Part shown: positions 22,218 through 39,678 of the stretch, one piece after another | How the letters are laid out: each line of letters begins with the position of its first letter | How positions within the stretch are numbered: the stretch's first letter is position 1 | Assembly: GCA_902521955.1 (NCBI GenBank) | Contig: CABYTP010000009.1 | Span: forward strand, 1 to 39,678 | Length of the DNA: 39,678 nucleotides | Reading direction: 5' to 3' | Source of the DNA: an uncultured Candidatus Actinomarina sp. | GTDB lineage: Bacteria > Actinomycetota > Acidimicrobiia > Actinomarinales > Actinomarinaceae | Made by a program: the position numbers and the translations under genes | The notes under the pieces: model-generated | Databases searched by the model: none | What the model saw: the letters and a program-made list of their open reading frames with translations, nothing else | What the model was told of the DNA's origin: nothing

Positions 22218-23741
22218 ATGTTGTCAAAATATTTTCAAAGTAACAAACAACTTATTGTTCTAGAAATAGCAAATAACCATCAAGGAGACCTTGAACACGG
22301 TTTAAAAATAATTAAATTATTTTCTGAGATTAATAATAAATATATAAATGATTTCAATTTTGCATTTAAATTTCAATATAGAGATTTGGAAACATTCATT
22401 CATAAAGATTATAAAAATTCTGACATAAAATATGTAAGAAGATTTCTTGATACTCAATTAAACGATAAAGAGTGGGGCTCTTTGATTGATGCAGTAAAAG
22501 ATGCGGGTTTTTATACAATGTGTACACCATTTGATGAAGCTTCTGTTAACAAGGTTGTACAAGATAATTTTGATATTTTAAAAATTGCTAGTGCCTCAAT
22601 AGATGATTGGCCATTAATTGAAAAAATTGGCGACTCAAATAAAAAAGAAATTATTGCATCTATTGGTGGCGCTTCAATGGAAAAAGTTAAAAGGTTTTTT
22701 TCATATATGAACAACAAAGGTAAGGATATTGCTTTAAATTATTGTGTAAGTTTATACCCAACTAATCAAGATAAACTAAATATTTCTTATGTAAAAGAGC
22801 TGAAAAGAACATTTCCTGATATACCAATAGGCTTCTCTACTCACGAGAATGGTTCAGTAGATAATACTGCCGGCCTCGCTCTTGCTGCGGGTGCCGTAAT
22901 TTTTGAGAAACATGTAGCGTTAGAGAATAATAATAAAAATTACACTATTAATGACTACTCTGTTGATACAAAACAATACGAAAATTGGATATGTAATCTT
23001 TTAGAATCAAAAGCAATACTTGGTTCAGTTGAAAATAGAAATTTCAATTTAAATTTAGAGCTCGATGCTCTTAGAGACCTAAAACGAGGGATTTTTGTAG
23101 ATAAAGATTTATCAAAAAATAAATTAGATAATAAAGATGTTTATTTTGCAATTCCCTCAAAACAGAATCAATTGCTATCCAACGATTTATCAAAGTTTAA
23201 TGGCATTGAATTAAAAAGTGACATTAAGGTTGATCAACCAGTTTTATACGATCAAGTAAATATATCAAACACAAGACCAGAGGTCGAAAAGATACGTGAT
23301 TTTATAAGAGATGAGCTCAGGCAATATAATATTTCAATACCTCAATCTATTGATTTAGAAATTTCTCATCATTACGGAATCGAAAAATTTCATGAGTTTG
23401 GTACTTGTATGCTTACTCTGGTTAACAAAGATTACTGTAAAAAAATACTCTATCAATACCCAAACCAAAAACACCCTGAACATTTTCATAAAATAAAAGA
23501 AGAAACTTTTATTTTGCTAGAAGGTTCCTTGGACGTTTATCTAGAAAACGATAAACATAGATTAAAAAAAGGTGATATTTTAACAATAGAAAGAGGAGTA
23601 AAGCATAGTTTTGAGTCAACTACTGGAGCAATTTTTGAAGAAATTTCAACTGAACATTTGAGTGATGACTCGTATTATACGGATGATTCAATAAATAACA
23701 ATGCAAATAGAAAGTCTAAAATTATGCTTTTTAATAATTGA
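22218..23741 (+). CDS. N-acetylneuraminate synthase (NeuB)-family protein with SAF-like region and C-terminal cupin
   Basis: LEIANNHQGDLEHGLKI, FAFKFQYRDLETFI, GFYTMCTPFDEASV, IGFSTHENG, GAVIFEKHVAL; C-terminal cupin HPEHFHKIKEETFILLEGSLDVYLENDKHRLKKGDILTIERGVKHSFES. Confidence 0.92.
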   Translation: MLSKYFQSNKQLIVLEIANNHQGDLEHGLKIIKLFSEINNKYINDFNFAFKFQYRDLETFIHKDYKNSDIKYVRRFLDTQLNDKEWGSLIDAVKDAGFYTMCTPFDEASVNKVVQDNFDILKIASASIDDWPLIEKIGDSNKKEIIASIGGASMEKVKRFFSYMNNKGKDIALNYCVSLYPTNQDKLNISYVKELKRTFPDIPIGFSTHENGSVDNTAGLALAAGAVIFEKHVALENNNKNYTINDYSVDTKQYENWICNLLESKAILGSVENRNFNLNLELDALRDLKRGIFVDKDLSKNKLDNKDVYFAIPSKQNQLLSNDLSKFNGIELKSDIKVDQPVLYDQVNISNTRPEVEKIRDFIRDELRQYNISIPQSIDLEISHHYGIEKFHEFGTCMLTLVNKDYCKKILYQYPNQKHPEHFHKIKEETFILLEGSLDVYLENDKHRLKKGDILTIERGVKHSFESTTGAIFEEISTEHLSDDSYYTDDSINNNANRKSKIMLFNN

Positions 23742-25290
23742 ATCTATTTGTAATTTCTACAACTTCATTAAATCTTGGATCAACTGGCACATAAAATGAT
23801 TTTACTTTTTTATTATCAATTGGCTCATTGGATAGGCAATTAAAAATTTGTAAGAAAGTATTAATTTGCCCATAGTCCTGAGAGAGAGTTTGGTTACATT
23901 CTTTTGAAAGTTTAATTGAGGAAAAGATTCTATATCTGCTTAGTATTTCTTCGTCCGTTAGTTGTTCATAGTTTCTAGCATAATTATAGTGAGGCCCGTG
24001 ATCGGATTGAAGAATTACTATTGAATTTTCATCAATGCTGTCTAAAAATCCTGTCAATTCTTTTTCAAGACATTTTATAGAATCTATATAAGGCTTACTC
24101 ATTTCAAACGCATTACTGTTATAACTTATGTGCTTTAAAGAATTGCACTTTTCATCAACATAAAATGGTCCGTGCGTATTTTTAAGATGAAAAAAATAAA
24201 AAACTGGTTTTCTTTCTTCATTGCGATTCAATTCATTATGAAAAATTTCCATGATTGTTTGTAGTTTTAAATCACCACAATTTTCACTACAATCAAGACC
24301 TAAAATATCTAGTATTTCAAAATAAAAAGGGATACTTTGTTGATTGTTTTCTATAATTTGAAAAGGGGTTCTAATTAGAAGTTCATAAAATATTTGTTTT
24401 GAATTTTTTCTGCCTAAACATACAATATTCTCATTTAAACTGTCTTCACAATTAAATTCTTTACTGTAAGCTGCAATATCGTACCCATTAGATTCTAAAG
24501 TCCTTATTACCTGCGAATTCATAATATTAAGTTCTCTTAAAATATGTCTATTCTTAGTTTTATAATTTTCACCATCTTCAACTGCATAATTAGTCGAGAA
24601 TATTGTATTAAGAGACATAGATGTAATTCCATAACTAGATATTGCGTTGTTCGCAATATAAAAATTATTGTTACTAAGAATAGACTTTAAATTTTTAGCA
24701 TCAAATCCATAAAAGTTTTCAAGAGTCTCGAAACTTGCAAGGCCGTCATATAGAAAAAAATAAATATCGGGTTTGTCAACAAATACAACTTCTTCAAAAT
24801 TATTTACAATTTTTGGGGTGTTTGTTTGAAGATTTTGACTGAAATAATTTGCAAGAAAAATGCTTACTGGTGAAGAAATAAGTAAAACTACCCAAATAGA
24901 TAAAAAAAGTTGAAAAAAATATTTATCATATATAAAAATTATGATGAGTACCCCAAAAAATAAAACTGTAAGCCATATAAGGAATGAATAGTTATTAATC
25001 TGAGTTATCCATCCTTGTGCCCTGTAGCCATAAAAAGTAGTCCAACTTCTATAGTTTAAAAAGACAAAGCCGATCCATGCTGTGATATACAAAATTTTTA
25101 AATAATTTTGAGATTTAAATATTTTCTTTAGGACAAAAAAGAAAATATAAAATACCACAAGATAGCCTAATGTAAATGAAAGAAAAAGGTTTATTTCACC
25201 TTCCTCAAAAATAAAGATGCTCCCGAAAAAAGAATTTACAAGGGGAAGAAGAATTAGTAATGGAGGAACATATCTTATTTTTTGTTTCAC
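23731..25290 (-). CDS. Membrane-anchored alkaline-phosphatase/sulfatase-superfamily protein
   Basis: N-terminal TM segments, DIYFFLYDGLAS, ITSMSLNTIF, ENSIVILQSDHGPHY (DHG metal-binding motif), KPVFYFFHLKNTHGPF. Confidence 0.8.
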   Translation of the reverse strand: MKQKIRYVPPLLILLPLVNSFFGSIFIFEEGEINLFLSFTLGYLVVFYIFFFVLKKIFKSQNYLKILYITAWIGFVFLNYRSWTTFYGYRAQGWITQINNYSFLIWLTVLFFGVLIIIFIYDKYFFQLFLSIWVVLLISSPVSIFLANYFSQNLQTNTPKIVNNFEEVVFVDKPDIYFFLYDGLASFETLENFYGFDAKNLKSILSNNNFYIANNAISSYGITSMSLNTIFSTNYAVEDGENYKTKNRHILRELNIMNSQVIRTLESNGYDIAAYSKEFNCEDSLNENIVCLGRKNSKQIFYELLIRTPFQIIENNQQSIPFYFEILDILGLDCSENCGDLKLQTIMEIFHNELNRNEERKPVFYFFHLKNTHGPFYVDEKCNSLKHISYNSNAFEMSKPYIDSIKCLEKELTGFLDSIDENSIVILQSDHGPHYNYARNYEQLTDEEILSRYRIFSSIKLSKECNQTLSQDYGQINTFLQIFNCLSNEPIDNKKVKSFYVPVDPRFNEVVEITNRFNY

Positions 25291-25325
25291 CTACATTATT
25301 ATATAGTAGAGTTATTGTAAGCAAT

Positions 25326-25496
25326 ATGTTTGAAATAATACTTTATACAGAAAATTTTTATTACATTGATCCAGGAACAACTTCCTATATATTTCAAGCC
25401 ATCTTAGCTGCAGGAATAACAGTTGGTGTTTTTTTTAGAAATATTAAATTTGGGTTGATAAGTATACTTAGCAAGTTTAAAAAGAAATCAAAATGA
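25326..25496 (+). CDS. Tiny membrane protein with YIDPGT motif
   Basis: MFEIILYTENFYYIDPGTTSYIFQAILAAGITVGVFFRNIKFGLIS...KKKSK: YIDPGTxSY followed by one TM helix and a basic tail. ATG at 25326 preferred over ORF-track start 25260, which would overlap the divergent gene. Confidence 0.65.
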   Translation: MFEIILYTENFYYIDPGTTSYIFQAILAAGITVGVFFRNIKFGLISILSKFKKKSK

Positions 25497-26570
25497 TGCT
25501 CTTAATATTTCTTTAATAGTTTCTTTATCGATATTTCCACTAAAAGTTCTTACTCGATCTTTTGTTATCATTTTGTCAATAAGTTCCAGAGATTGGTTGA
25601 GGCTTAAATAATTATTTAGCTCTTTATTAAGACTTAATTTTTTTAAATTTTTAAGAGAATTTCTAATCATGGTGTTTAATTTTTCAGAATTATCTATATT
25701 TATTTCACAAATTTTATATATAGCGTCTAATGTAAAACTACATGCCAATCCGTGTGGAACACCATATTTTAAAGTTAGAGGATAGCTTATTGAATGCGCA
25801 ACAGATGTTCTAGTAATATTTATAGCTTTTCCACTGTAATAGCTTGCTTTAAATAAAGATTTAAATGTTGAAAATTCTTTTGCATTTAAATCTAAATTTT
25901 TATATATAAATGAATTTTGAATAGATTTTGAGGAAAACTCAAGAGAATCTTTTGTAGCATTTATATTCCAAATTGATTCTAAAGAGTGAGAGAGAGTATC
26001 GAGAGCTGTAAATAGTAAAGTTTTGTATGAGCTAGTAAATAATAGTTCAGGGACAAAATAAACTGAATCAGGTAAAAGATTGGGGTGATCTAGTGAATAT
26101 TTTTTATTGTTTTCCCTATCCCAAATTGTTGCGAATTGAGTAGCTTCTGCTCCAGTGCCTGCAGTTGTAGGTATTACTATAAGATGTGGTTTTTTAATAT
26201 TTGAACTAAGAATATCTGTTGAACCAATTGTATTTTTTAAACTCATTGGATTATTGACTCCAATAAATGAAGTCAAAATTTTTGCAGTGTCGATTACACT
26301 TCCACCACCAACTGCAATAACATTAGTAAACATATTAGAGGAATTATTTGAGATCAATTCTTCTAAGTTCTTTAATGAAGGGTAGCTGTTTACAAAAATA
26401 TCCTGGGTCTTGTTTAATTTTGTATTTGTCAAAGACTCAAGAATATCTTTATATCCTCTTTCCTTTCCGCCTTGGGACATTATTACCAGTGTTTTGTTAC
26501 CATTTTCAATCTCCAAGGAGTTGATAATCTTTATCTCAGAAAATTTGGAATCAAGTAATTTAAGTTTCAT
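25488..26570 (-). CDS. phpC: Iron-containing alcohol dehydrogenase, probable phosphonoacetaldehyde reductase
   Basis: VIAVGGGSVIDTAKILTSF, VIPTTAGTGAEATQFATIW, GVPHGLACSF: Fe-ADH family; overlaps the ppd gene by 11 nt in one operon. Confidence 0.85.
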   Translation of the reverse strand: MKLKLLDSKFSEIKIINSLEIENGNKTLVIMSQGGKERGYKDILESLTNTKLNKTQDIFVNSYPSLKNLEELISNNSSNMFTNVIAVGGGSVIDTAKILTSFIGVNNPMSLKNTIGSTDILSSNIKKPHLIVIPTTAGTGAEATQFATIWDRENNKKYSLDHPNLLPDSVYFVPELLFTSSYKTLLFTALDTLSHSLESIWNINATKDSLEFSSKSIQNSFIYKNLDLNAKEFSTFKSLFKASYYSGKAINITRTSVAHSISYPLTLKYGVPHGLACSFTLDAIYKICEINIDNSEKLNTMIRNSLKNLKKLSLNKELNNYLSLNQSLELIDKMITKDRVRTFSGNIDKETIKEILRASF

Positions 26571-27675
26571 CTGTCATAAGCTTCATAAAAATATCCTTAT
26601 TTTGAGCAGGAGATTCATGTGGTCTTCCTAATTGAGGATCAGATTTTTGATTAATAACTATTTCAATTAAGACTGGGCCTTTTTTTGAATAATTACTTGT
26701 CAAAAATTGTTCAAGTTTATCTATATCGTCAAATTTAAAATAATCTTTGTAATTAGATCCTTTTGATATTGCTTCAAGATCTAGTTGACTTCCAACTGTT
26801 GGTTGATTTCCAACTGATTCATGAGAAGAATTATTAAAAACAAAATGGTAAAAATTTTCTAAAGGCTGACTACCTATAATTGGCAATATTCCCATGTGCA
26901 TCAATAATGATCCGTCACCATCAAGTAGTATAGTTTTATTTTTTTTATGAGAAAGGCTTATGCCAGCTGCTATTGAGCTAGCATGTCCCATTCCTCCAAT
27001 TGTGTAAAATATTTTTGCATTTTTGTTAGAACTTTTGTTAACAAAATATAATTCTCTAGAAGTTTTTCCGGTTGTAGAAATAAAAATTCCATCATTACAG
27101 TAGATTGAATAAATTTTTTCTATAAAATCTTTCCTGTTTTTATAACTTGATCTTTTTTCTAGTGAACGATTATCGTTTTTGAAAAAGTTTTTTTGAAATA
27201 CATATGCAAATTGTTTGTTTTGTGAAATGCTTTCTTCTAACAAATCTAATTTTGGCAAATTTTCTTCATTTACTATTTGATACTCTATTTCTAAAAGGTC
27301 TAATTGTTGAATTGTTATACGACCCTGAAAAGTATGCTGGGGTTCGTCTTTAACACCAGGCTGTCCTCTCCAGCCAACTAAAAAGATTATTGGGATGTTG
27401 TATACATCTCTTGTAGCTAAAGAAGTAATTGGGTTTATTATATTGCCTAATCCAGAATTCTGAAGATATACAATCCCTGGTTTTCCAGAACCTAAATAAT
27501 GACCAATTGCCATTCCTACAGCAGCCCCCTCATTTTGGGTAATAATGTGTTGAGTTTTTTTAGAAAAGTCAAGCTCTAAGCTTTTACTTAATCCTGATAG
27601 TAAAGAATCTGGAACTCCAAAATAATGATCATGCCCTCTATCTATCAAGCTCTGGAGGAACTCTTTAGCTGTCAC
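26560..27675 (-). CDS. ppd: Phosphonopyruvate decarboxylase
   Basis: FGVPDSLLSGL, NEGAAVGMAIGHYLGSGKPGIVYLQNSGLGNIINPITSLA, FLVGWRGQPGVKDEPQHTFQG, LLDGDGSLLMHMG: ThDP-dependent Ppd signatures. Confidence 0.95.
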   Translation of the reverse strand: MTAKEFLQSLIDRGHDHYFGVPDSLLSGLSKSLELDFSKKTQHIITQNEGAAVGMAIGHYLGSGKPGIVYLQNSGLGNIINPITSLATRDVYNIPIIFLVGWRGQPGVKDEPQHTFQGRITIQQLDLLEIEYQIVNEENLPKLDLLEESISQNKQFAYVFQKNFFKNDNRSLEKRSSYKNRKDFIEKIYSIYCNDGIFISTTGKTSRELYFVNKSSNKNAKIFYTIGGMGHASSIAAGISLSHKKNKTILLDGDGSLLMHMGILPIIGSQPLENFYHFVFNNSSHESVGNQPTVGSQLDLEAISKGSNYKDYFKFDDIDKLEQFLTSNYSKKGPVLIEIVINQKSDPQLGRPHESPAQNKDIFMKLMTDET

Positions 27676-27677
27676 AA

Positions 27678-28982
27678 TTATGTTCCTGGAATTAAGTTTA
27701 AGATTTCTTTTATAGAAATTAAATGATCATCAGCTTCTAAGCTTCGCTTGTTTGTTAATATCATTTCTGCTGTTTGTACCATGGATGGGTAAGCTGCTCT
27801 CAATAAATGGTTCGCATAAATAATAATCGAAACGCCATTTTGAGATAATTCTTTTTCATACACATGATTATAAGATGTTGGCACAACAACTAGAGGTCGT
27901 TGTTTCTTAAACTTTTTGTATTCCTTGCAGAATTCGAAAATTTCAGATGCAGATTCTTTCCTACTATGGATAAGTATTCCATCTGCATTTGCATCTATAT
28001 ACGCGTTTGCTCTATTGAGTGCATCGTCAAGACCTTTGTCTAAAATAAGACTTTCAATTCTTGCAATTATCATAAAATCATCTGTTGACGCTGAATCTTT
28101 ACCTATTGATATTTTATTGCTAAAATTTTCAATAGAATCTTGTGTTTGATCTACATCAGTTCCATGTAGAGAATTTCTTTTTAATCCAGTTTTATCCTCA
28201 ATTACAACCGCTGAGACTCCTGCTCTTTCCAAATTTCTTACTGTAAATGAAAAGTGTTCGGGAAGCCCTCCTGTGTCAGCGTCATAAATAATAGGCTTTG
28301 TCGTAACTTCTAATACTTCATTAAGTGATATAAATCTTGAGGAAAAATCTACTGCTTCAATATCTGGTTTACCTCTAGATGTAGAATCAGTTAGGCTGCT
28401 TGCCCACATTCCATCAAATTCAGAATATCCAAGATCGTTTGAAATTTTTGTATTCTCTATAACAAGAGCACTTAATGGATTGTGTATATCCGCAAAGGTT
28501 AGATAATCTTTAATATCTAGACTGTTTTTCAATGATGTTCTTCTTAGATCAGGAGTAATTCCATTTCTTTTAATTTGGTTTTTAATTTCTGTAGAAGAGA
28601 TTCCTTCAGTATATGGTACTTCCAATAACTCGCCATTCCATTCTTTTAGTACTTCAATAACCTTATTTCTAACATTTTTTTGAACACCTGTTTTCCAATC
28701 ATCACCATGGACAACAATTTTAGGTTTGATCTCTTTTAAGTTATTGGTGTAATCAAGGGTTTCTTGCTTCACCACTTCATCAACATAGCTTAAATTTTCT
28801 ATAACAATTCTTCTATCATCCCATCTCATTGTTGGAGCTTTTTTATAGCTTGCTATTGCTTCATCTGTTAAAAGACCTACTACGACTCTTCCTTTTTCAG
28901 CTGCAATTTTTAGTATGTTTATATGTCCAGGATGTAAAAGATCAGCGCTCATAGCAACATAAACTGTAAGTGGTCTTTTCAT
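27678..28982 (-). CDS. pepM: Bifunctional cytidylyltransferase / phosphoenolpyruvate phosphomutase
   Basis: N-term [17 protein letters not shown] (HxGH nucleotidyltransferase) and ISSTEI; C-term [43 protein letters not shown] containing the PEP mutase EDKxxxKxNS motif. Confidence 0.95.
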
Positions 28983-29028
28983 ACAACTATATTATCGTAA
29001 ACTAATTTTTTCCTGTTAGTTTTATTAT

Positions 29029-30039
29029 ATGGAGATAGTTTTTTTTTCGGAAGGCAACCAACATACAAGATTTTTTAAACCCTTGTTAGATTATTTAATT
29101 AAAAATAAACAAAATAAAATTACGTTAATTACATTAGACGAAACCGATGAATTGATAAAAGATAGTAGAATTTCAAGAAAATTAGTTCCAAAAAACAACA
29201 TTGAAAAAATTAAAATACTTAAAAATATTGAGGCTGATTATTTTATTACCACTACACCGGGAATCGGTCATAGCTACTTTCCAAAGTCTAAAATTGTGCC
29301 ATCAAATAGGCGGCCAAAATATGTTTATATATTTCATTCCTTAGTTAGCCCAAATGAAATGTATTTAAAAAATTCATTTAAAAATTATGATTTAATTTTT
29401 GCTCCATCTGAAAAAATAAAAACACAACTTAGTGATTTAGTTTCAAAAAATACAAAAATTTTAGTTTCAGGATATTTTCTATTTGATAGCCAATCAAGCC
29501 ATCAAAATACTATTGGTAATTCAAAAAATATTTTAATTGCTCCAACATGGGGAAATGATGGACTAATTACAAATTTAGATAAACTAGAAGCTTTAAGTAT
29601 TTTACATGCACAACATAAATATCAATTAACAATTAGGCCTCATCCTATGACATTTTTAGATAAAATTTTAATTAGAAAATTAGAAAAATTTAACCTTGAT
29701 ACTAGTAATGAAGTTAAAAATTTTGGAATTTATGATTTTTTAATAACTGATTTTTCTGGAATTGCATTGGAGTTTTATTTTTTTACTAGAAAACCAACAT
29801 TATTTATAGAATCAAACAAAAAAATAAAAAGGAAAATAAAGAAGGCGGAGTTAAAACTTTCTTTAATAGAAAACGAAATGCAAGAAATCATTGGAAGTAA
29901 ATTCAAAATTGATAAAGATTATAACAAATATGTTTACCCAACAATTTTTGATTCAGAAAAAGCAGACTCGTTTATAGAAACTTTTCAAAGCAAAAAATCT
30001 TCTGTGAAATATGTTGGGGAATTCTTATTAGAAAATTAG
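29029..30039 (+). CDS. CDP-glycerol:poly(glycerophosphate) glycerophosphotransferase (TagF)-like protein
   Basis: KYVYIFHSLVSPNEMYLKNSFKNYDLIFAPSEK, LIAPTWGNDG, LTIRPHPMTF, FLITDFSGIALEFYFFTRKPTLFIES: Glyphos_transf pattern. Confidence 0.82.
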   Translation: MEIVFFSEGNQHTRFFKPLLDYLIKNKQNKITLITLDETDELIKDSRISRKLVPKNNIEKIKILKNIEADYFITTTPGIGHSYFPKSKIVPSNRRPKYVYIFHSLVSPNEMYLKNSFKNYDLIFAPSEKIKTQLSDLVSKNTKILVSGYFLFDSQSSHQNTIGNSKNILIAPTWGNDGLITNLDKLEALSILHAQHKYQLTIRPHPMTFLDKILIRKLEKFNLDTSNEVKNFGIYDFLITDFSGIALEFYFFTRKPTLFIESNKKIKRKIKKAELKLSLIENEMQEIIGSKFKIDKDYNKYVYPTIFDSEKADSFIETFQSKKSSVKYVGEFLLEN

Positions 30040-30665
30040 ATATTATGTAATTTATTTAAAATATATTCTAAAAAACTTAGTCCAACATTTCCACTTTTTT
30101 CTGGATGAAATTGGCAACCTACATATCGACCAATTTTATTATTGTCACTTGATACGATTGCAGTAACTTCGTTGCCTTCCAGTTTTGTTGTTCCTAATAT
30201 ATTTTCTTTTATTTTTGGAAATGCTGAGTAACTGTGAACAAAATAAAAATATTCTCCAGCAAACTGCTCTAATTCATTATTTTCAAAAGATACTTTTCTC
30301 CACCCAATGTTTGGAATTTTATCAATTCCGTATTTATCAAGCTTTTTTACGGATCCTGGAATTAAATCAAGTCCGTTTTTATTTCCTTCTTCTGAGAAAG
30401 AGAATAGCAATTGCATACCTAAACATATTCCAAGTATTTTTAAATTTTTTTCTTCTGCAATTTCTTTAAAATCAACAAAGTTAGGTTTCAAATTCTCCAT
30501 TGCCTGTCCGTAATGACCAACACCTGGGATTATTACAATATCCTCAGAATGAAAATTTTCAACATTTGAAACACTTTTTGTGTTATACCCTAAATTTTCT
30601 ACAGCATATTTAATGCTTTGTAAGTTTGATAAATTTGTATTTAAAATTTTTAAAGTATTAGTCAT
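30036..30665 (-). CDS. HisH-like glutamine amidotransferase (probable acetamidino-sugar pathway subunit)
   Basis: IIPGVGHYGQAMENL, LGICLGMQLLFSFSEEG (nucleophile Cys), CQFHPEKSG. Clusters with WbpG/PseA-like protein rather than his genes. Confidence 0.93.
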   Translation of the reverse strand: MTNTLKILNTNLSNLQSIKYAVENLGYNTKSVSNVENFHSEDIVIIPGVGHYGQAMENLKPNFVDFKEIAEEKNLKILGICLGMQLLFSFSEEGNKNGLDLIPGSVKKLDKYGIDKIPNIGWRKVSFENNELEQFAGEYFYFVHSYSAFPKIKENILGTTKLEGNEVTAIVSSDNNKIGRYVGCQFHPEKSGNVGLSFLEYILNKLHNI

Positions 30666-30686
30666 CGTCTTATATCAAAACCAAGT

Positions 30687-31424
30687 TCATTCTTTAAATG
30701 AAGACAAATTAGTATATTTTATCAGCTCAAGTTGATTTTTAATTTTAATAACTGCTCTTAATGAATCAATGAATGAAATAAAAGATAGAATTAACAAAAT
30801 TACTACAAGCTCGTAAATGTATCCCAGAGATACAAAAATTAAAACTATTATAATGTGCGAGCTTTGTATAGATTCTAAGCAAGATCTTATGAATATCTTA
30901 ATATTCTTGTCAATACTATTAGCATTACTCTTTTTTTCTGAAACTTTAGATAATTTTCTATATAAAGAAAGCTTGAGTTCTATAATCACGCTAAGAAAAT
31001 ATAAGATCAACATAGCAAATAATAAATAACTGATAGTGTTGTTTAAATCAAAATTATTGACATAAAAACTTAAATAAATATAAGACAATGGAATAATAAC
31101 ATCACCTAAACCATCAATTAACTTACCATAAAGATTATTAATATTGTAAATTCTTGCAAGGTTCCCATCACAAAAATCAAGTATCTGAATAAATAAAATA
31201 AAAACAAAAAATGTAAATATTTCAATTTCTAGATTAAACATTGGATGAAACATTAACACTAGAAATATTAGAATTCTTGAGTATGTAATTTGATTTGGCA
31301 AAAGCTTAAACTTATAGAAAATAAAAGTTGGAAGAATAGAAATTGGTCTAAAAAAATAAATAAAACTATAATTTCTAATTTTTGATTGTCTATCGATATC
31401 TAAAATTTCTGATTTATTAAACAT
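30687..31424 (-). CDS. CDP-alcohol phosphatidyltransferase family membrane protein
   Basis: CDGNLARIYNINNLYGKLIDGLGD matches DGx2ARx8Gx3Dx3D exactly; several TM helices. Confidence 0.92.
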   Translation of the reverse strand: MFNKSEILDIDRQSKIRNYSFIYFFRPISILPTFIFYKFKLLPNQITYSRILIFLVLMFHPMFNLEIEIFTFFVFILFIQILDFCDGNLARIYNINNLYGKLIDGLGDVIIPLSYIYLSFYVNNFDLNNTISYLLFAMLILYFLSVIIELKLSLYRKLSKVSEKKSNANSIDKNIKIFIRSCLESIQSSHIIIVLIFVSLGYIYELVVILLILSFISFIDSLRAVIKIKNQLELIKYTNLSSFKE

Positions 31425-31648
31425 ATTTAAATCTTATCATTTATATTTATAACTTGTTTTTAATTGGCTACAGGCAAAATCTAACTTCAAACTTTTAGTG
31501 TTGAAAATAAAAGCTACCATTTTAACCTTTCTTTATTTTACATTATTTAAAGTTACTTATTCTTCTTTAATTCAATTCAAATGTTCGAATGAATTAGATA
31601 TGTGGATTTATAAGATATATTATTTTGATAAACGCCAATTTTTATTAA

Positions 31649-32392
31649 TTAATTCCTTATTTCAAAATCAAGGGTTCTTAAATATTTTTTAATTGAATTT
31701 ATATCTAATTTTTTATAATGAAGGGCTGAACCAATCAAAATCCCGGATAAAGATTTATCAAGTTTATCCAAATGTTCTAACTTTCCAAAACCACCTCCTA
31801 CAATCAAAGGAACAGAGCAAGATTCTAATGCACATTCAATCATTTCATAGTCAAATCCATTTAAGTATCCATCATTATCTATTGAAGTCACAGATATTTC
31901 GCCAACTCCACGATCCACAACTTCAGAAATCCAATTCTTTAGATCTTTTTTTGAGTCATCTCTTCCGGTAGAGGTAAATACATTCCAACTATTCTTATCG
32001 GTTTTTTTTGCTTCAATAGATAAAGAAACGTTTGCAGAACCAAAACTTTTTACAAGTTCATCAATTAATTCAGGCCTTTCAACTGCAGCAGTGTTTACGG
32101 ATACTTTATCTGCACCATATTTAAAATACTCTAAGGCGTCTTCTACGTTTTTGATTGCTCCACTAACTGTAACCGGCACAAATATGTTTTTTACAGTAAA
32201 AGTTAATATTTCATAAAGTCCTTCTCTGCTGTACAAACTAGCAACAGAATCTATATACATAATTTCATCGATATTTTCTTCAAAATATTGTTTTGCAAAG
32301 TCTTCAGCATCACCTAACTGTCTTAAGCCCTCAAAACTTAAACCCTTTATAAGTGCAGAATTTTTTATATCAAGTCTTGAAATTATTCTCAT
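31649..32392 (-). CDS. HisF-like cyclase subunit (acetamidino-sugar pathway type)
   Basis: MRIISRLDIKNSALIKGLSFEGLRQLGDAEDFA, PVTVSGAIKNVEDA, GADKVSVNTAAVERPELI, LIVGGGFGKLEHL. Confidence 0.92.
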   Translation of the reverse strand: MRIISRLDIKNSALIKGLSFEGLRQLGDAEDFAKQYFEENIDEIMYIDSVASLYSREGLYEILTFTVKNIFVPVTVSGAIKNVEDALEYFKYGADKVSVNTAAVERPELIDELVKSFGSANVSLSIEAKKTDKNSWNVFTSTGRDDSKKDLKNWISEVVDRGVGEISVTSIDNDGYLNGFDYEMIECALESCSVPLIVGGGFGKLEHLDKLDKSLSGILIGSALHYKKLDINSIKKYLRTLDFEIRN

Positions 32393-32416
32393 ATAAAAAT
32401 ATTGTATACTGGGGAT

Positions 32417-33601
32417 TTAGGTTACTTGAGTTTTTAGTAACCATCTATTATTTTTTTTCAACCATATTTCTGGTGACCTAAATTTATCAATAATTTCCCA
32501 CAATTTTTTTTCGTCTAAATCCAAATATTCTAAAAAATCTGGTAAATACTTATCAGGAAATTCATGATCATATTTTTGTACTAATGCCACTCCTTCTTCT
32601 CTTGTAATTTTATTATTTCTAATTTCTTGTGAAGCATCATAAGTAGCTCTTCCAATTCCAAATTTAATAAAAATCATGTAAAAATGTAGCCATTCTAATA
32701 TATCGTCTATTCCTGCATATTTACTGTATGAGCCTTGAGATCTTTCATTATTGGGCCTAAAGCCAGTATTTTCAGCTGCATAATAAAACATTTCTTGAGG
32801 GTCCCATTTGACGTAATAACTCAAGTAATGGACTTGAGTTTTTTTCTGTTTCAGAATATTAAAATCTATTGGATTATACATATTAAAGTCTGAAGTTTTA
32901 AATCCATAATCTTTAATCAGATTGCTTTTGGGAATGCCTCCAATCGTCAAATCTTCAGCTTTGGATTCGGAAAAAAAAGATAAGTCCATTGTTGGTCGAT
33001 GATTATCTTCAATTTTGTTTCCATATTCAGCTTGATTTTCTCCATAAAAAACTAATGGAATGTCATACATAATAGATGTCCTTGGTCCTATGAGTTTCTG
33101 GCCAATTATAAACGGTTGAAATGGATGACCTAAGTTTTCAAAAGCCAATTTAGTCAATTTTCTATGTACATTACCACTAGGGTGAATCAAAATATTATCA
33201 AAACCCCCAATTTGAATCCAAGACTGAAAATTTTGCCATCCAATATCAGTATATTTATGAGGAGCCCAAGTGACTGTTAGTGGATTCATTCCAAATTCTT
33301 TTTTTAAATAATGTGATGCAAATGCACTATCTTTTCCACCCGAACCAGGAACAACACAGTCATATGACCCGTCCTTGCTTCTGAACTTATCACATAGTTC
33401 TTGTAGCTCGCTTCTTCTGTCTTTCCAGTTTATTTTTTCTTTCTCTAAAGACCAAAGGCACGCGCTACAGACTCCTTCGATAAAATTAATTTTAGGTTTA
33501 ATGTCTTCTGATTTATTTTTAAATTCAACAACACTGCTGGGTCTTTGATTAGAAATAACACATTTGGTACAGTACTGAACATTGTTTTCCTTTGAATCCA
33601 T
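32417..33601 (-). CDS. N-acetyl sugar amidotransferase (WbpG/PseA-like)
   Basis: YCTKCVISNQRPS, GVCSACLW, YDCVVPGSGGKDSAFASHYLKKEFGMNPLTVTWAPHKYTDIGWQNF (PP-loop SGGKDS), FYGENQAEYGN. Confidence 0.94.
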   Translation of the reverse strand: MDSKENNVQYCTKCVISNQRPSSVVEFKNKSEDIKPKINFIEGVCSACLWSLEKEKINWKDRRSELQELCDKFRSKDGSYDCVVPGSGGKDSAFASHYLKKEFGMNPLTVTWAPHKYTDIGWQNFQSWIQIGGFDNILIHPSGNVHRKLTKLAFENLGHPFQPFIIGQKLIGPRTSIMYDIPLVFYGENQAEYGNKIEDNHRPTMDLSFFSESKAEDLTIGGIPKSNLIKDYGFKTSDFNMYNPIDFNILKQKKTQVHYLSYYVKWDPQEMFYYAAENTGFRPNNERSQGSYSKYAGIDDILEWLHFYMIFIKFGIGRATYDASQEIRNNKITREEGVALVQKYDHEFPDKYLPDFLEYLDLDEKKLWEIIDKFRSPEIWLKKNNRWLLKTQVT

Positions 33602-33658
33602 GTAAACTACTATACTATAGTTGCTACAGATAATTTATGGTGGAAATAATGGTCAATA

Positions 33659-34390
33659 ATGACACAGAATAGAGATCACGATTATTTATATCTTGAAGAA
33701 GAAAAATATTTAACTAATCCCAAACACACTACATTAATTTTTGAAAAGCTGTTAAAAGAGATATCTTTTGGTGATAAATACTTAAGCTTGTGGGACATAG
33801 GTTGTAGTAATGGTTCAATGCTCAACTACTTGGTCAAACAATTCCCGAATTGTAATTTTTTTGGAAGCGATATAATTCCGGAAAGCATTGAACTTGCAAA
33901 ACAAAAAACAAACAAAGTTATTAATTATTTTAGCGACGATATTACTCAAAAGAATATTACATCACTAAATTGTGATGTAATAATTTCGGTCGGTGTATTG
34001 CAAATTTATGACAACATTAAAGATATAATTGAAAACTATATTTCAAGAACAGCAGATGAAGGGTATATATTCCTTGAAGGACCTTTTGGAAAATATGATG
34101 TTGATGTAAAAATATCGTACAGAGATAATAAAAATACAAAAACATCAAAAATAGACCAAGGTGGTTGGAACGTCTGGTCTATCAATTATCTTCAAGAAGA
34201 ATTAAGCAAGATAAAATATATAAAAAACTTTGATTTTATTCCTATAAATTTTCCAAAAAATCTAAATATAAAACAAAATGAAGAAGATTCTTTGAGAAGC
34301 TGGACTGTAAATGTTGATGGACAAAATAAATTTTTAAATGCATTAATTTTACAAGATCACTTTGTCTTGAAATTAAAAATAAATAAGTAG
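33659..34390 (+). CDS. Class I SAM-dependent methyltransferase
   Basis: LSLWDIGCSNGSMLNYLVKQFPNCNFFGSDIIPESIELAKQ; CDVIISVGVLQIYDN. Confidence 0.88.
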   Translation: MTQNRDHDYLYLEEEKYLTNPKHTTLIFEKLLKEISFGDKYLSLWDIGCSNGSMLNYLVKQFPNCNFFGSDIIPESIELAKQKTNKVINYFSDDITQKNITSLNCDVIISVGVLQIYDNIKDIIENYISRTADEGYIFLEGPFGKYDVDVKISYRDNKNTKTSKIDQGGWNVWSINYLQEELSKIKYIKNFDFIPINFPKNLNIKQNEEDSLRSWTVNVDGQNKFLNALILQDHFVLKLKINK

Positions 34391-34403
34391 GGTTGATATT
34401 CAA

Positions 34404-35330
34404 GTGAACAATCATTCATTAATGTTTCATGATTTCAAACTTGATAATACTATTGGTACTCAGGGAGCGATATCTCAAACTGATTTTAAGAAGCTATTAA
34501 GACCAAATGAAAAAAATTATTTTTCAGATCCTTTAGAAATTCAAAACAGAAGTAATAAAAATTTAGAATCAAATTCATTTATAACATTTGATGATGGACT
34601 ATTAAGTCAATATGAAATTGCAATTGAATGCTTGAAAGATACTGAAATAAAGGGAGTATTTTTTGTTCATTCAAAGCCATTGATAGGCGAGTATGATATT
34701 CACCAAGTTATAAGATCATTTAAGAATTCATCAATATTTAAGAATGTAGATGACTTTAATCAACAATTGATAGATATTCTAGTTTCTAATTTTGGAATAA
34801 AAGAAAAAGAAAAATTAGAAACTAACTTTATAAATAGTGATTACTTGTCTGAGTTTAATTTTTATTCAAATCTCGACAGAAAATTAAGATATTTAAGAGA
34901 TTATGTTATCAGTTTAAATCATTATGAAGATGGAATTAAAGAACTCCTTAATCAAAAAAATGTTAATGTAGATGATTTAGTCAAAAATACTTATATTGGT
35001 AGAAAAAAATTAAATGAAATAAATGAATTAGGACATATCATTGGGCTCCATTCACATTCGCACCCTACAAATTTAGGCAAACTAGATGAGACAAAACAAA
35101 GATATGAAATAGAAACTAATTTTGAAATATTAAAAGACCTTCTAGATTATGAACCAAATTCAATCTCTTACCCATCAAATTCCTATAACAATGAAACACT
35201 TAAAATACTTCAAGACTTAAAAATATCATATGGGTTTAGAGCTGATAATAAAATTAATTCAAGCCCTTTTGAACTATCAAGAATAGATGCAACTATAGCT
35301 TTAAATAGCATTAATAAGTCTTCATTATGA
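34404..35330 (+). CDS. Polysaccharide deacetylase (NodB)-like protein
   Basis: NSFITFDDGLLSQYEIAIECL (TFDDG), HIIGLHSHSHPTNLG (HSHSH), SISYPSNSYNNETLKIL. Confidence 0.88.
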   Translation: MNNHSLMFHDFKLDNTIGTQGAISQTDFKKLLRPNEKNYFSDPLEIQNRSNKNLESNSFITFDDGLLSQYEIAIECLKDTEIKGVFFVHSKPLIGEYDIHQVIRSFKNSSIFKNVDDFNQQLIDILVSNFGIKEKEKLETNFINSDYLSEFNFYSNLDRKLRYLRDYVISLNHYEDGIKELLNQKNVNVDDLVKNTYIGRKKLNEINELGHIIGLHSHSHPTNLGKLDETKQRYEIETNFEILKDLLDYEPNSISYPSNSYNNETLKILQDLKISYGFRADNKINSSPFELSRIDATIALNSINKSSL

Positions 35331-36073
35331 AATTAGGATTAATTACAGGAAATTCATTAAGACACAATTATTTGGGTACATACCTTAGTCAAAACTTCGA
35401 AACGATTCATTATATCGAAACCTCAGCGGTTAAACACAATACAAAAAGTACGATTATGAAGGATTATTTTCTAAAAGTACAAAATAGCGAGAATGTAATT
35501 TTTGAAAAAGCTAATTCATTAAATAGTAAAGCAGATAAGATTTTTTTACCGAAGGGTCAAGTTAATAACTTGGAAGTTAAATCAAATAAGCTTTTGGACT
35601 GTGATTGCATTATTGTATTTGGATCTTCTATTATAAAAGATCCTTTGTTTTCAGAAATTTCAGATAAAAAATTGATCAATTTACACATGGGAATTTCACC
35701 ATACTATTTAGGTTCTGCTTGTAATTTTTGGGCAATGTATGATGATAATATTCAATATGTTGGTGGAACTATCCAAACCCTATCAAGAGCACTTGATATG
35801 GGCAATACTTTAAAATACTGCTACCCCAATTTTAATAAAGACTCTTTTAACCCTTTTGATTTTTCAATGGAAGCAGTTATGGAGACGATTAATAATTTGC
35901 CCGAAGTAATTAATAATATTGATAAGTATTTATCCAACACGGCAAAACCTGATAGTGCAAAATTGATAAGACACTCAAAAATTATTGACTTCAGTGATGA
36001 AATTGTTAAAGATTTTTACAAAAAAGAATTAAATTTAAAAAATATTACAAAAAGATTAATCAATAAGAATTAA
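35327..36073 (+). CDS. Formyltransferase-family protein (probable sugar N-formyltransferase or related acyltransferase)
   Basis: CIIVFGSSIIKDPLFSEISDKKLINLHMGISPYYLGSACNFWAMYDDNIQYVGGTIQ: N-HxGxSPxYxG formyltransferase motif; ATGA overlap with upstream gene. Confidence 0.8.
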   Translation: MKLGLITGNSLRHNYLGTYLSQNFETIHYIETSAVKHNTKSTIMKDYFLKVQNSENVIFEKANSLNSKADKIFLPKGQVNNLEVKSNKLLDCDCIIVFGSSIIKDPLFSEISDKKLINLHMGISPYYLGSACNFWAMYDDNIQYVGGTIQTLSRALDMGNTLKYCYPNFNKDSFNPFDFSMEAVMETINNLPEVINNIDKYLSNTAKPDSAKLIRHSKIIDFSDEIVKDFYKKELNLKNITKRLINKN

Positions 36074-37107
36074 AGCATATCGAGTTTTGACAATTCTTCT
36101 TGGCTGCCTACATCTAACCATCTCTCGGTTATGTAATAGGGATGAACATGATATTTACTAATTGATTGTTCAATAAGCTCACTCATGTCTAAGTAGTGTT
36201 TATTTTTAATATTTGAAATAATGTTTTTGCTAATGATATTTATTCCTGCACTAACCCAATCTTGGTACATTGGCTTTTCATCAAATCCAGTAACTTTTTT
36301 ATTCTCTACTTTTATTACGCCGTAAGGAATAAATGTATTAAAAGGTCTCACCCCCACTAAAACATCAGCTTCTTTTTCATCAAAAGTAGATAACATTTCT
36401 CTAAAATTTGTTTCAGTTATTACATCACAATTTACTGTTAAAACAGGCATAGGTTCTTCTTGAAGATAATATAGAGCACCAGCAGTACCAAGAGGTTCTT
36501 CTTCAATAATAAAGTCTATCTCAATATTGTCGATTTCAAACTCTGATACTTTTTCAATTATTTGATTTGCCATGTGATGTAAAGATATGTAAATTTTTCG
36601 AAACCCATATTTTTCAATTTTTTTAAGCTGATATTCCAACAGGGTAACTCCTTTAATATCAACGAGTGGTTTTGGCTTATCTCTTGTTATTTCACCTAAC
36701 CTAGACCCTTTGCCTCCAGCCATTAAAAGTACTGGATTTTTCAATTCATTTTTAATTTCATAAGGAACATATAACAATTTTTTTATTGACATATTTTTAT
36801 CAAGAATAGGAATATAGGGGTTTAGGTTTTTATTAAATAATTTTTTTGCTGATTCTTCAGTGTAGTTTTCTTCTAAATAGTCAAAATCATAATTAATTAT
36901 GTTTTGAATTGTATCTTTTAATGATCGACTTTCTAATAAGCCTCTTCTGAGATCGCCATTTGAAATTAAACCAATTAACTTATCATTTTTTAAAACAAGA
37001 AGGATTTTGTGAAAGCACTCTTCTATTTTTTGTAAAGCGCTTAAAAAATTTTCATCTTCATTAATGGTATTTTCTTGTAAATTTTTTATAATTTGTATCT
37101 TTGTCAT
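36070..37107 (-). CDS. CBS-domain plus sugar-1-phosphate nucleotidyltransferase fusion (PtmE-like)
   Basis: N-term CBS-like ...LIGLISNGDLRRGLLE...YIPILDKNMSIKKLLYVP; C-term VLLMAGGKGSRLGEITRDKPKPLVDIKGVTLLEYQLKKIEKYGF (GGxGxRL...KP). Confidence 0.9.
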   Translation of the reverse strand: MTKIQIIKNLQENTINEDENFLSALQKIEECFHKILLVLKNDKLIGLISNGDLRRGLLESRSLKDTIQNIINYDFDYLEENYTEESAKKLFNKNLNPYIPILDKNMSIKKLLYVPYEIKNELKNPVLLMAGGKGSRLGEITRDKPKPLVDIKGVTLLEYQLKKIEKYGFRKIYISLHHMANQIIEKVSEFEIDNIEIDFIIEEEPLGTAGALYYLQEEPMPVLTVNCDVITETNFREMLSTFDEKEADVLVGVRPFNTFIPYGVIKVENKKVTGFDEKPMYQDWVSAGINIISKNIISNIKNKHYLDMSELIEQSISKYHVHPYYITERWLDVGSQEELSKLDML

Positions 37108-37163
37108 TAAATTTAATGATAATAAACATCACTAATAGTCAATAAGGTATTTAGAATATTTTT

Positions 37164-38456
37164 GTGAAAAAAGTTGCTCTAATTCTAGACCACCCATCAA
37201 GAGATTTGGACTATATATCTGATATTGGCTTTCATTTGGTCAAAAATGGTATAAAAACTTTTATAGTTCCGTCAAACATGAGGCACAGAGAGTTATTCCT
37301 CTTAAAGCCCGATTACATACTGTATCCTAATCATAGAGATACAAATGATAGTGAGATTAGTATTCTAGAAAAAGCTAATATTTCAATAGGGGTTCTAGAA
37401 ACTGAGCAATGTGTAAATGAGGTTTTTTTTGAAAAATATCAAATACCAAAAAAATTATCCTCAAGAAATGATATCGAAAATTTTTTTGTTTGGGGGGAAT
37501 ACTTCTTAAAGCTGTGTCTTGATAGAAATTGGTATAGTAATAAACAAGTAAAGGTTATTGGCAGTCCTAAACATGATAGATATTTTTCAAGCCAGAAGTT
37601 TGATAGAAATAAAATTTATGACTTACTAATTGCGACTTCATTCCCAAACTCTAATCCATTGTTTGGTGAGAGAGAAAGTCGTAAAATGTATCAAAATCTA
37701 GGAATGAAAAATTCAGAAATCGATGAATTCATAAATCTTCATAAAGTAAATGTACAAAATATGATTCAATTTATAAATAAGAATTTATCTGATACCAAAT
37801 TAAATATTTTGCTTAGGGTTCATCCTTATGAGCAGAATTTTGAATTTTATAAAAATAGTATTAAAGGTGCAAACATTGAGATTGATGATGGGAGAAATAC
37901 AATTTATGAGTCTTTAAATAAATCTAAGATGTTAATTCATTTTAATTCGACCTCTTGTGTTGATGCTCAAGCATTGGGTATCCCAAGTATCAATATGTCA
38001 TGGATGCCCCAATTAGATGTATTTCATGAATCTACAGAAGTAATGTCTCTGGTTAGTTATCTTCCAAAAACTGAATCGGAGTGCATGCAATTAATATCAG
38101 ATATTCTTAACAAAAAAATTGAATTAAAAATACAAAATGATTCTCAAGAACTTGCGGAATATATTTTTAAATTCGATGGACTTGCTGCAATTCGATGTGC
38201 CGAAATCATTAAGAACTCTTTATATTTAAAAAATAAAGAAGTGAGTTTCAACTTAAACCAAAAAACATTTGTAGAAAATTTTAATTTAAGAAACTTAATA
38301 ATAAGTTCAATACTTAAGAATCGGTGGAAAAAATCCAGAAAATATTTTAACAAAAGTCAAGTGGAAGAATCGTTAAAGAGATCTGGCAAAATAATAAATT
38401 CTACAAATGCAAATGTAGGCCGGATAGATTTAAGCAGTGTTGAGTTATTAGAGTAG
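37164..38456 (+). CDS. Surface carbohydrate biosynthesis protein (GT-B-like)
   Basis: LILDHPSRDLDYISDIGFHLVKNGIKTFIVPSNMRHRELFLLKPDYILYPNHRDTN, IGSPKHDRYFS, NKSKMLIHFNSTSCVDAQALGIPSINM; GTG start. Confidence 0.78.
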   Translation: MKKVALILDHPSRDLDYISDIGFHLVKNGIKTFIVPSNMRHRELFLLKPDYILYPNHRDTNDSEISILEKANISIGVLETEQCVNEVFFEKYQIPKKLSSRNDIENFFVWGEYFLKLCLDRNWYSNKQVKVIGSPKHDRYFSSQKFDRNKIYDLLIATSFPNSNPLFGERESRKMYQNLGMKNSEIDEFINLHKVNVQNMIQFINKNLSDTKLNILLRVHPYEQNFEFYKNSIKGANIEIDDGRNTIYESLNKSKMLIHFNSTSCVDAQALGIPSINMSWMPQLDVFHESTEVMSLVSYLPKTESECMQLISDILNKKIELKIQNDSQELAEYIFKFDGLAAIRCAEIIKNSLYLKNKEVSFNLNQKTFVENFNLRNLIISSILKNRWKKSRKYFNKSQVEESLKRSGKIINSTNANVGRIDLSSVELLE

Positions 38457-38488
38457 TAATATAGAAAGGTAATATCAAAGGATTAAAA

Positions 38489-39517
38489 ATGATAGAATTT
38501 TCAAATATAACTGTATCAGATAATCATGAACCATTTGTAATAGCTGAAGCGGGAATTAATCATGATGGAGATTTTGCTAAAGCCATTGAATTAGTAGACA
38601 TTGCATATGAGTCGGGAGCTTCGGCTGTTAAATTTCAAACTCATATTACTGATAAAGAAATGATTCCTACAGATATGAAACCAGGAAATATTAGTGATGA
38701 GTCATTGTGGGATATTATTGAAAGATGTGTTCTTTCTAAAGAACAAGAAGAAGAATTGTTTACTTACTCAAAAGAGAAAGGGATACTTTTTTTCTCGACA
38801 CCTTTCAGTAGGGAGGGAGCAGATAGGCTAAACGAATTAGGAATTGAAATATTTAAGATAGGGTCTGGAGAATGTAACAACCTTCCACTAATCAAACATA
38901 TTGCAAAATTTAAAAAACCAATCATTTTGTCAACAGGCATGAATGATATAGAGTCTGTAAAAATTTCAGCAGAAACGATCCTTGAAGAAAATTCAAATTT
39001 GTCAATTTTACACTGTACAAGTATTTATCCAGCTCCTCCAGAAACAATGAGGCTAGGAGCTATTACTCATTTGAAAAATACTTTCCCAAATTTAGAAATT
39101 GGTCTTTCAGATCATTCATTAGGAATATCTGTTTCTCTTGGTGCAGTTGCTGTAGGAGCCAATATTATTGAAAAACATTTTACAAAATCTAGAAAATGGC
39201 CTGGACCAGACAATCCTTTTTCAATTGAACCAGACGAATTAACAAACCTAGTTAATTCATCTAAAGAAATATGGAAGGCTAGAGGTGGAAAGAAAGATAT
39301 CTTGGATGACGAAAAACCCGTGATTGACTTTGCATATGCCTGTGTAGTTGCGAATAAAAATATCAACAAAGGAGAAATATTGTCACTTGACAATATTTGG
39401 GTAAAAAGACCGGGGACTGGAGAAATTTTTGCAAAGGATTTTGAAAATGTCCTAGGAAAAGTGGCAACCATTGACATATCAGAAAATACACAGCTATCAC
39501 AGTCAATGTTTAAATAA
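38489..39517 (+). CDS. NeuB-family nonulosonate synthase (legionaminate/N-acetylneuraminate synthase-like)
   Basis: FVIAEAGINHDGDFAKAIELVDIAYESGASAVKFQTH, GILFFSTPFSREGADRL, ILSTGMNDI, LHCTSIYPAPPE, IGLSDHSLGI, EKHFTKSRKWPGPD. Confidence 0.95.
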   Translation: MIEFSNITVSDNHEPFVIAEAGINHDGDFAKAIELVDIAYESGASAVKFQTHITDKEMIPTDMKPGNISDESLWDIIERCVLSKEQEEELFTYSKEKGILFFSTPFSREGADRLNELGIEIFKIGSGECNNLPLIKHIAKFKKPIILSTGMNDIESVKISAETILEENSNLSILHCTSIYPAPPETMRLGAITHLKNTFPNLEIGLSDHSLGISVSLGAVAVGANIIEKHFTKSRKWPGPDNPFSIEPDELTNLVNSSKEIWKARGGKKDILDDEKPVIDFAYACVVANKNINKGEILSLDNIWVKRPGTGEIFAKDFENVLGKVATIDISENTQLSQSMFK

Positions 39518-39519
39518 AT

Positions 39520-39678
39520 ATGAATAACTTATCTGACGAAAGAGATTATCTAGCTACAAGAAGAAAATCATTACTGACTGAAACAGATTTAAACAATCAT
39601 TATGAAGTAATAAAACAAAGGTACCAAGGTAAAAAGCTCTTAGTAATTGGAGGAGCTGGTTCAATAGGTTCTTCATTT
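39520..39678 (+). CDS. Polysaccharide biosynthesis nucleotide-sugar dehydratase, N-terminal fragment (runs off right edge)
   Basis: MNNLSDERDYLATRRKSLLTETDLNNHYEVIKQRYQGKKLLVIGGAGSIGSSF...: GGAGSIGSS Rossmann motif; open to the edge (53 codons). Confidence 0.8.
   Translation, partial: MNNLSDERDYLATRRKSLLTETDLNNHYEVIKQRYQGKKLLVIGGAGSIGSSF

Follow-up and report, generated by a model that had tools for sequence, protein, structure and literature searches.

The Pnt pathways with PntC and Ppm (Rice et al. 2019, PMC6697681) resemble the locus described here in having a PEP mutase-cytidylyltransferase fusion, a phosphonopyruvate decarboxylase (Ppd) and surface-glycan genes nearby, with CMP-phosphonate as the presumed donor and LicD among the named neighbours. 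Fusions to PF01467 make up 23.6% of the Ppm proteins in that study, which calls the steps that put phosphonates on cell surfaces unknown, and in whose main text neither a glycerophosphotransferase nor a phosphatidyltransferase occurs. The 39,678 nucleotides of an uncultured Candidatus Actinomarina that we analysed (the window) differ from these pathways in having an iron-type alcohol dehydrogenase (ADH) where Pnt has an AEP transaminase, i.e., HEP (2-hydroxyethylphosphonate) versus AEP, and the slot next to such genes in the loci studied here holds a TagF-like protein, LicD, or a CDP-alcohol phosphotransferase (CDP-AP).

Each of these proteins has described relatives. The TagF wall teichoic acid polymerase (PDB 3L7I) and TagF-like capsule polymerases (8QOY) have in common with our TagF-like protein the PF04464 catalytic domain, the GT-B fold, and the histidines H444 and H584, whereas the latter protein has no N-terminal half, is linked to phosphonate genes, and has neither a TagB partner nor a PF01467-type TagD in the assembled genome. 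The CDP-APs AF2299, PgsA, and CHPT1/CEPT1 share with ours a complete catalytic motif and a PF01066 score above the cut-off; ours differs in lying far under the pgsA equivalog cut-off and in being an extra copy in a variable island. LicD proteins are phosphocholine transferases of a different protein family that occupy the same slot after pepM-ppd-ADH.

Phosphonate genes within envelope-glycan islands of marine plankton, which the locus also resembles, were described by Acker et al. 2022 (PMC8931226) and in a 2022 ISME survey (PMC9381506); the available text of the two papers names no TagF-like or CDP-AP candidate, unlike here, and that of the second gives an LPS choline phosphotransferase and an arylsulfatase as neighbours and already records Actinomarinaceae as phosphonate producers. 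According to the survey, polysaccharide esters of HEP and methylphosphonate account for much of the high-molecular-weight dissolved organic phosphorus in the sea and fuel methane production. The only order-wide flexible island of the Ca. Actinomarinales is one for sugar decoration of the envelope (PMC7771536). In full-text searches of the open-access literature, no paper came up that connects PF04464 with pepM clusters; priority is not certain.

The cassette and its island

The features of the locus are listed in Table 1. Four genes run on the minus strand, encoding the PntC-PepM fusion, Ppd, ADH, and a membrane protein of the AlkP/sulfatase superfamily, and the cassette ORFs are real genes, far beyond chance. 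The TagF-like gene is divergent from that of the fusion across a gap of 46 nt; the original prediction had placed it in this way, and the coordinates agree. Beyond it, again on the minus strand, lie HisH, CDP-AP, HisF, and WbuX. CDP-AP, previously put at about 650 nt further on with a perfect motif, is found 647 nt beyond the end of the TagF-like gene, and its catalytic motif is complete. It had also been stated that two transferases flank the cassette; this describes the TagF-like gene, which adjoins pepM, but hisH intervenes before CDP-AP, which thus is no direct flank and looks like a member of a WbuX-HisF-(CDP-AP)-HisH run. We therefore dropped that wording for CDP-AP. The remainder of the window is an envelope-polysaccharide island with two NeuB-type genes, NeuA-type genes, an O-antigen ligase domain, an ABC exporter, glycosyltransferases, and the WbuX amidotransferase.

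Table 1. Positions of the cassette genes, their neighbours, and the replaced block in the window
Feature	Position	Strand	Basis
AlkP/sulfatase-superfamily membrane protein, 519 aa, first gene after ADH	23731..25290	-	PF00884 47 bits
Block of ~7.85 kb, present in the window and absent from the syntenic island of same-genus G022	23754..31605	.	blastn
Iron-type alcohol dehydrogenase (ADH), PhpC-like position	25488..26570	-	PF00465 93 bits
Phosphonopyruvate decarboxylase (Ppd)	26560..27675	-	TIGR03297 382 bits, above cut-off
Cytidylyltransferase-PEP mutase fusion (PntC-PepM)	27678..28982	-	TIGR02320 389 bits, above cut-off
TagF-like (PF04464), candidate CMP-phosphonate:glycan transferase, 336 aa	29029..30039	+	PF04464 34.4 bits
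HisH-type glutamine amidotransferase subunit, sugar acetamidino pathway, divergent copy	30036..30665	-	TIGR01855 176 bits
CDP-alcohol phosphotransferase, candidate phosphonolipid or carrier synthase, 245 aa	30687..31424	-	PF01066 45.2 bits

The fusion protein matches PEP_mutase at 180 bits and, in its N-terminal part, PF01467 at 54 bits, and the PEP mutase motif EDKxxxxxNS is complete. Two marks of a Pnt pathway, a PEP mutase fused to a cytidylyltransferase and a Ppd, are therefore present, the relevant TIGR02320 and TIGR03297 scores both lying above their cut-offs. The best NCBIfam match of ADH is TIGR03405, with 217 bits under a cut-off of 423; the enzyme would turn phosphonoacetaldehyde into HEP, and it is because of this ADH, itself under its NCBIfam cut-off, that HEP is proposed rather than AEP. 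The fusion should make phosphonopyruvate and, by analogy, the CMP-phosphonate donor.

Taken together, the block can be read as a phosphonyl-tailoring cassette inside an island for envelope polysaccharide (nonulosonic acid), the host being a streamlined marine actinobacterium. Judged by gene content, PEP mutase, Ppd, and ADH would make HEP, and the fused cytidylyltransferase would activate it as CMP-HEP, following PntC and the Fom1 cytidylyltransferase domain cited in PMC6697681. On the cytoplasmic side, the TagF-like protein would then take HEP from CMP and attach it to a hydroxyl group of a lipid-linked glycan of the envelope, in the way that TagF uses CDP-glycerol. Two further roles are conjecture: CDP-AP may serve a lipid or a carrier from this same donor, and the product may be acted on by the AlkP-type protein once it is outside the membrane.

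Alignment by blastn with the syntenic island of G022, a genome of the same genus, allowed the limits of the block to be drawn. Window positions 22245-23753 and 31606-39598 match G022 at about 73% identity; in the interval that they enclose, part of hisH is the only match, and the phosphonate block stands in place of a 4.8-kb block of the G022 island. Compared with G022, the window has its NeuA and HAD genes in other positions. In G022, hisH directly adjoins hisF and CDP-AP is missing, and the homologous block ends just past hisF. HisH of the window is only 41% identical to its G022 counterpart, against 81% for HisF and 85% for WbuX, and hisH thus seems to have come with the block. By this synteny, CDP-AP and the divergent hisH belong to the same replaced block as the phosphonate, TagF-like, and AlkP genes, and the block may have moved as a single unit.

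The assembly comprises 942 kb in 30 contigs, is 90% complete, and has two WhiB genes. Of 14 control genomes, only Corynebacterium gave a WhiB match, so that an actinobacterial host is most likely; the genome size, the low GC, an order whose 42 genomes form one genus, and the glycan island are in keeping with Ca. Actinomarinales. A PEP mutase above the cut-off was found in two of 42 genomes of the order, the second being that of G016, of the same genus, whose PepM cassette is sister to that of the window on the pepM tree (SH-aLRT 98). After its ADH, G016 carries LicD (L004:7652-8383), the only LicD among the 42 genomes, and no PF04464; the two pepM cassettes of the genus therefore bear different candidate CMP-donor transferases. 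LicD transfers phosphocholine from CDP-choline, and its occurrence in the same slot makes the slot look like one for a CMP-donor transferase.

Genes following pepM-ppd-ADH in other bacteria

A scan of genome contigs with the TagF-like protein as the sole query found no relatives, and pepM was consequently taken as bait. The PntC-PepM fusion, used without reference to TagF, yielded 80 loci with proteins 58-65% identical; the bait loci, the loci from genome searches, and the window made up the 83 fusion loci analysed. Ppd is next to pepM in 76 of these, and ADH is the second gene after pepM in 71, across many phyla. In the slot after pepM-ppd-ADH, a TagF-like protein was found in 27/69 cases, LicD in 7/69, and CDP-AP in 3/69, against 13/788, 19/788, and 8/788, respectively, elsewhere in the same loci (Fisher p of 7e-23, 0.003, and 0.05, relatedness being ignored). 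Because the loci were collected by pepM alone, the TagF enrichment is not a selection effect. Six phyla are represented among the slot TagFs, and the smallest p value overstates independence, since 17 of the 27 are from Bacteroidota. On the pepM tree, the TagF label nevertheless requires 15 changes, at least eight of them forced by well-supported branches, and the association is thus not that of one inherited operon. A Pfam check of 23 other slot proteins found LicD in six.

The original prediction had proposed such a neighbourhood survey for both transferases. The TagF-like protein does recur beside pepM-ppd-ADH; CDP-AP follows ADH in its three loci, with position statistics that are marginal. 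Recurrence in a fixed place beside phosphonate genes in many phyla makes the TagF-like protein a candidate that can be tested for the attachment step. The conserved slot thereby names concrete candidates for phosphonate attachment, namely, the TagF-like protein, LicD, and, less surely, CDP-AP, and as these are present in cultured bacteria (TagF-like in Daejeonella lutea, CDP-AP in Desulfuromusa kysingii, and LicD in Alteromonas), the step is directly testable. CDP-AP as the attachment enzyme is much less certain than the TagF-like protein.

Some loci showed other arrangements. Slots without TagF, LicD, or CDP-AP (L010:13501-14466, L015:8501-9460, and L024:13595-14212) include sulfotransferase-like proteins and APS kinase. 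Ignavibacteria-type operons (L049, L064, L073, and L076) have a WbuX-type amidotransferase gene four or five genes upstream of pepM, an echo of the amidino-sugar genes of the window. In two relatives from the class (G235 and G242, loci L131 and L134), a TagF-like and a CDP-AP gene lie close together with a nucleotidyltransferase and no adjacent pepM; this set is perhaps a polyol-phosphate pathway.

The TagF-like protein

The protein scores above the curated PF04464 cut-off of 22.1 bits, all 32 TagF-like proteins scanned belong to this family, and a profile of the set matches TagF (3L7I) with E=1e-29. In the printed alignment columns, the TagF catalytic histidines H444 and H584 are kept as H103 and H205 of the window protein. 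Its identity to the operon TagFs is only about 20-25%, and it groups with them weakly on the TagF tree (support 81/72); its firm sister (100/99) comes from same-genus G035, a genome 82% complete in which no pepM was found. The predicted model has a GT-B fold (pLDDT 79), and its many GT-B matches from Foldseek include TagF and a capsule polymerase with bound CMP. Foldseek was set aside as proof of TagF function, as such generic matches neither set TagF apart from other GT-B enzymes nor tell a transferase from UDP-GlcNAc epimerases.

From its position, family, and catalytic residues, we consider that the TagF-like protein probably moves HEP from CMP to an envelope glycan; against this, the gene in the window is divergent and lies outside the operon. 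An ordinary polyol-phosphate (teichoic-acid-like) transferase of a surface polysaccharide, for which adjacency to pepM is incidental, would be a quite unlikely alternative. Structures solved for the family are those of teichoic and capsule polymerases (TagF, TarL, and Cps3D), and members of the clade do occur in genomes without pepM: among 297 genomes of the phylum there were six strong TagF-like matches, two of them beside pepM, two in genomes where pepM lies at another place (G495 and G553), and two in genomes without pepM (G307 and G544). Among 296 genomes of the class, PF04464 was found in eight, a true PEP mutase in eight, and both in three; the gene order in one genome, G052, is pepM-ppd-ADH-TagF. 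The clade is thus not confined to genomes in which pepM was found. A classic teichoic pathway, however, is not visible in the 90%-complete assembly: the TagF-like protein is the sole PF04464 match, leaving no second one as the TagB primer enzyme, and a PF01467 search, outside which TarI/IspD-type synthases fall, found no TagD-type gene, its matches being CoaD-, NadD-, and PanC-like proteins and the PepM fusion, and nothing else. It had been set down beforehand that a TagD-type synthase elsewhere in the genome would speak against a phosphonate role, as would clades found mainly without pepM; judged by these conditions, the outcome is mixed to favourable. The slot enrichment in pepM loci and the exchange for LicD within the genus also argue against a polyol-phosphate transferase.

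Bacterial sialyltransferases have the GT-B fold and an HP motif in common with this protein, and NeuA- and NeuB-type genes occur within the window. A GT-B transferase using CMP-nonulosonate from those genes would also be in keeping with the many unrelated GT-B matches from Foldseek. We regard it as highly improbable: where TagF fills the slot, NeuA/NeuB accompany it in only one locus out of 27, which speaks against a transferase for CMP-sialate; the best sequence matches are PF04464 and TagF structures; and a family search of the window shows, at 37164-38456, a further surface-carbohydrate protein belonging to a transferase-like family. Phosphonate transfer by the TagF-like protein, as originally interpreted, accordingly retains the support of position, catalytic residues, and the LicD exchange, whereas the evidence for the same interpretation of CDP-AP is thin. 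A split in which one of the two enzymes serves a glycan and the other a lipid, as the original prediction proposed, is conjectural.

CDP-AP and the AlkP-superfamily protein

The 45.2 bits of CDP-AP exceed the PF01066 cut-off of 22, and its motif, DFCDGNLARIYNINNLYGKLIDGLGD, reads as a complete D(x2)DG(x2)AR(x8)G(x3)D(x3)D. Tested as PgsA with TIGR00560, it scored 34.2 bits, under the equivalog cut-off of 109.1. Across 42 genomes of the order, there are one to three PF01066 proteins each, of housekeeping size, and a fourth copy only in the genome of the window. In the class sample there was no close relative of CDP-AP, the best match being 28.7 bits and 24% identity.

It is possible, if somewhat doubtful, that CDP-AP combines CMP-phosphonate with diacylglycerol (or a carrier) into a phosphonolipid, in parallel to the glycan modification or as a donor for it. 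CDP-AP directly follows ADH in L018, L061, and L080; L080 has both a TagF-like and a CDP-AP gene beside pepM, as in the window, and L018 (9080-14360, from D. kysingii) has CDP-AP on both sides of pepM-ppd-ADH, its second copy directly before pepM. The fourth copy is missing from 41 relatives, and the replaced block that contains it also contains the phosphonate genes; this synteny with G022 is the best argument tying CDP-AP to phosphonate. The profile matches choline/ethanolamine phosphotransferases as well, both CDP-DAG-dependent and CDP-choline-dependent enzymes being among its matches, but those to CDP-DAG-dependent synthases are equal or better. Also against a phosphonolipid synthase are the marginal slot enrichment, CDP-AP sequences that are only about 20% identical, and a gene that reads with hisF/hisH and not with the phosphonate operon. 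The structure model (pLDDT 65; best Foldseek E 0.012) was too poor to serve as a basis for inference.

Lying between hisF and hisH on the same strand, CDP-AP might instead be part of an acetamidino-sugar (WbuX-HisF-HisH) operon unrelated to phosphonate. We find this doubtful, as hisF and hisH of G022 are adjacent without CDP-AP and homology ends just past hisF, the window hisH is itself divergent, and genomes with WbuX have at most three PF01066 copies, of housekeeping size.

The AlkP gene was absent from the original prediction. Its product keeps the YDG, T, THGPF, and SDHG motifs, and a phmmer search with it against the PDB gave no match. After removal of plain YidC proteins from the set, related AlkP domains were counted in 12 of the 37 fusion loci that have TagF and in 2 of the 46 that lack it (p=9e-4), in most cases immediately following TagF; in the window, the TagF and AlkP genes are on opposite sides of pepM-ppd-ADH. 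The AlkP protein is, by conjecture, a candidate third partner acting as an extracytoplasmic transferase or hydrolase. Domain fusion suggests that TagF-like and AlkP proteins act jointly, and, rather tentatively, the two, often with a YidC-type domain, may constitute a phosphonate transfer system in which TagF loads from CMP in the cytoplasm and AlkP transfers outside; no published description of a TagF-AlkP phosphonate transfer system was found in the literature. The fusions take varied forms: Bacteroidales have TagF followed by a YidC-AlkP fusion, two relatives from the phylum have a YidC-TagF protein followed by an AlkP protein, and G495/G553 have the YidC, TagF-like, and AlkP domains in one 1377-aa protein, with TagF and AlkP Pfam scores near the cut-offs. 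Varied combinations of the YidC-type, TagF-like, and AlkP domains are found at L193:6461-10594, L191:2149-4077, L192:8825-10993, and L023:14870-17911.
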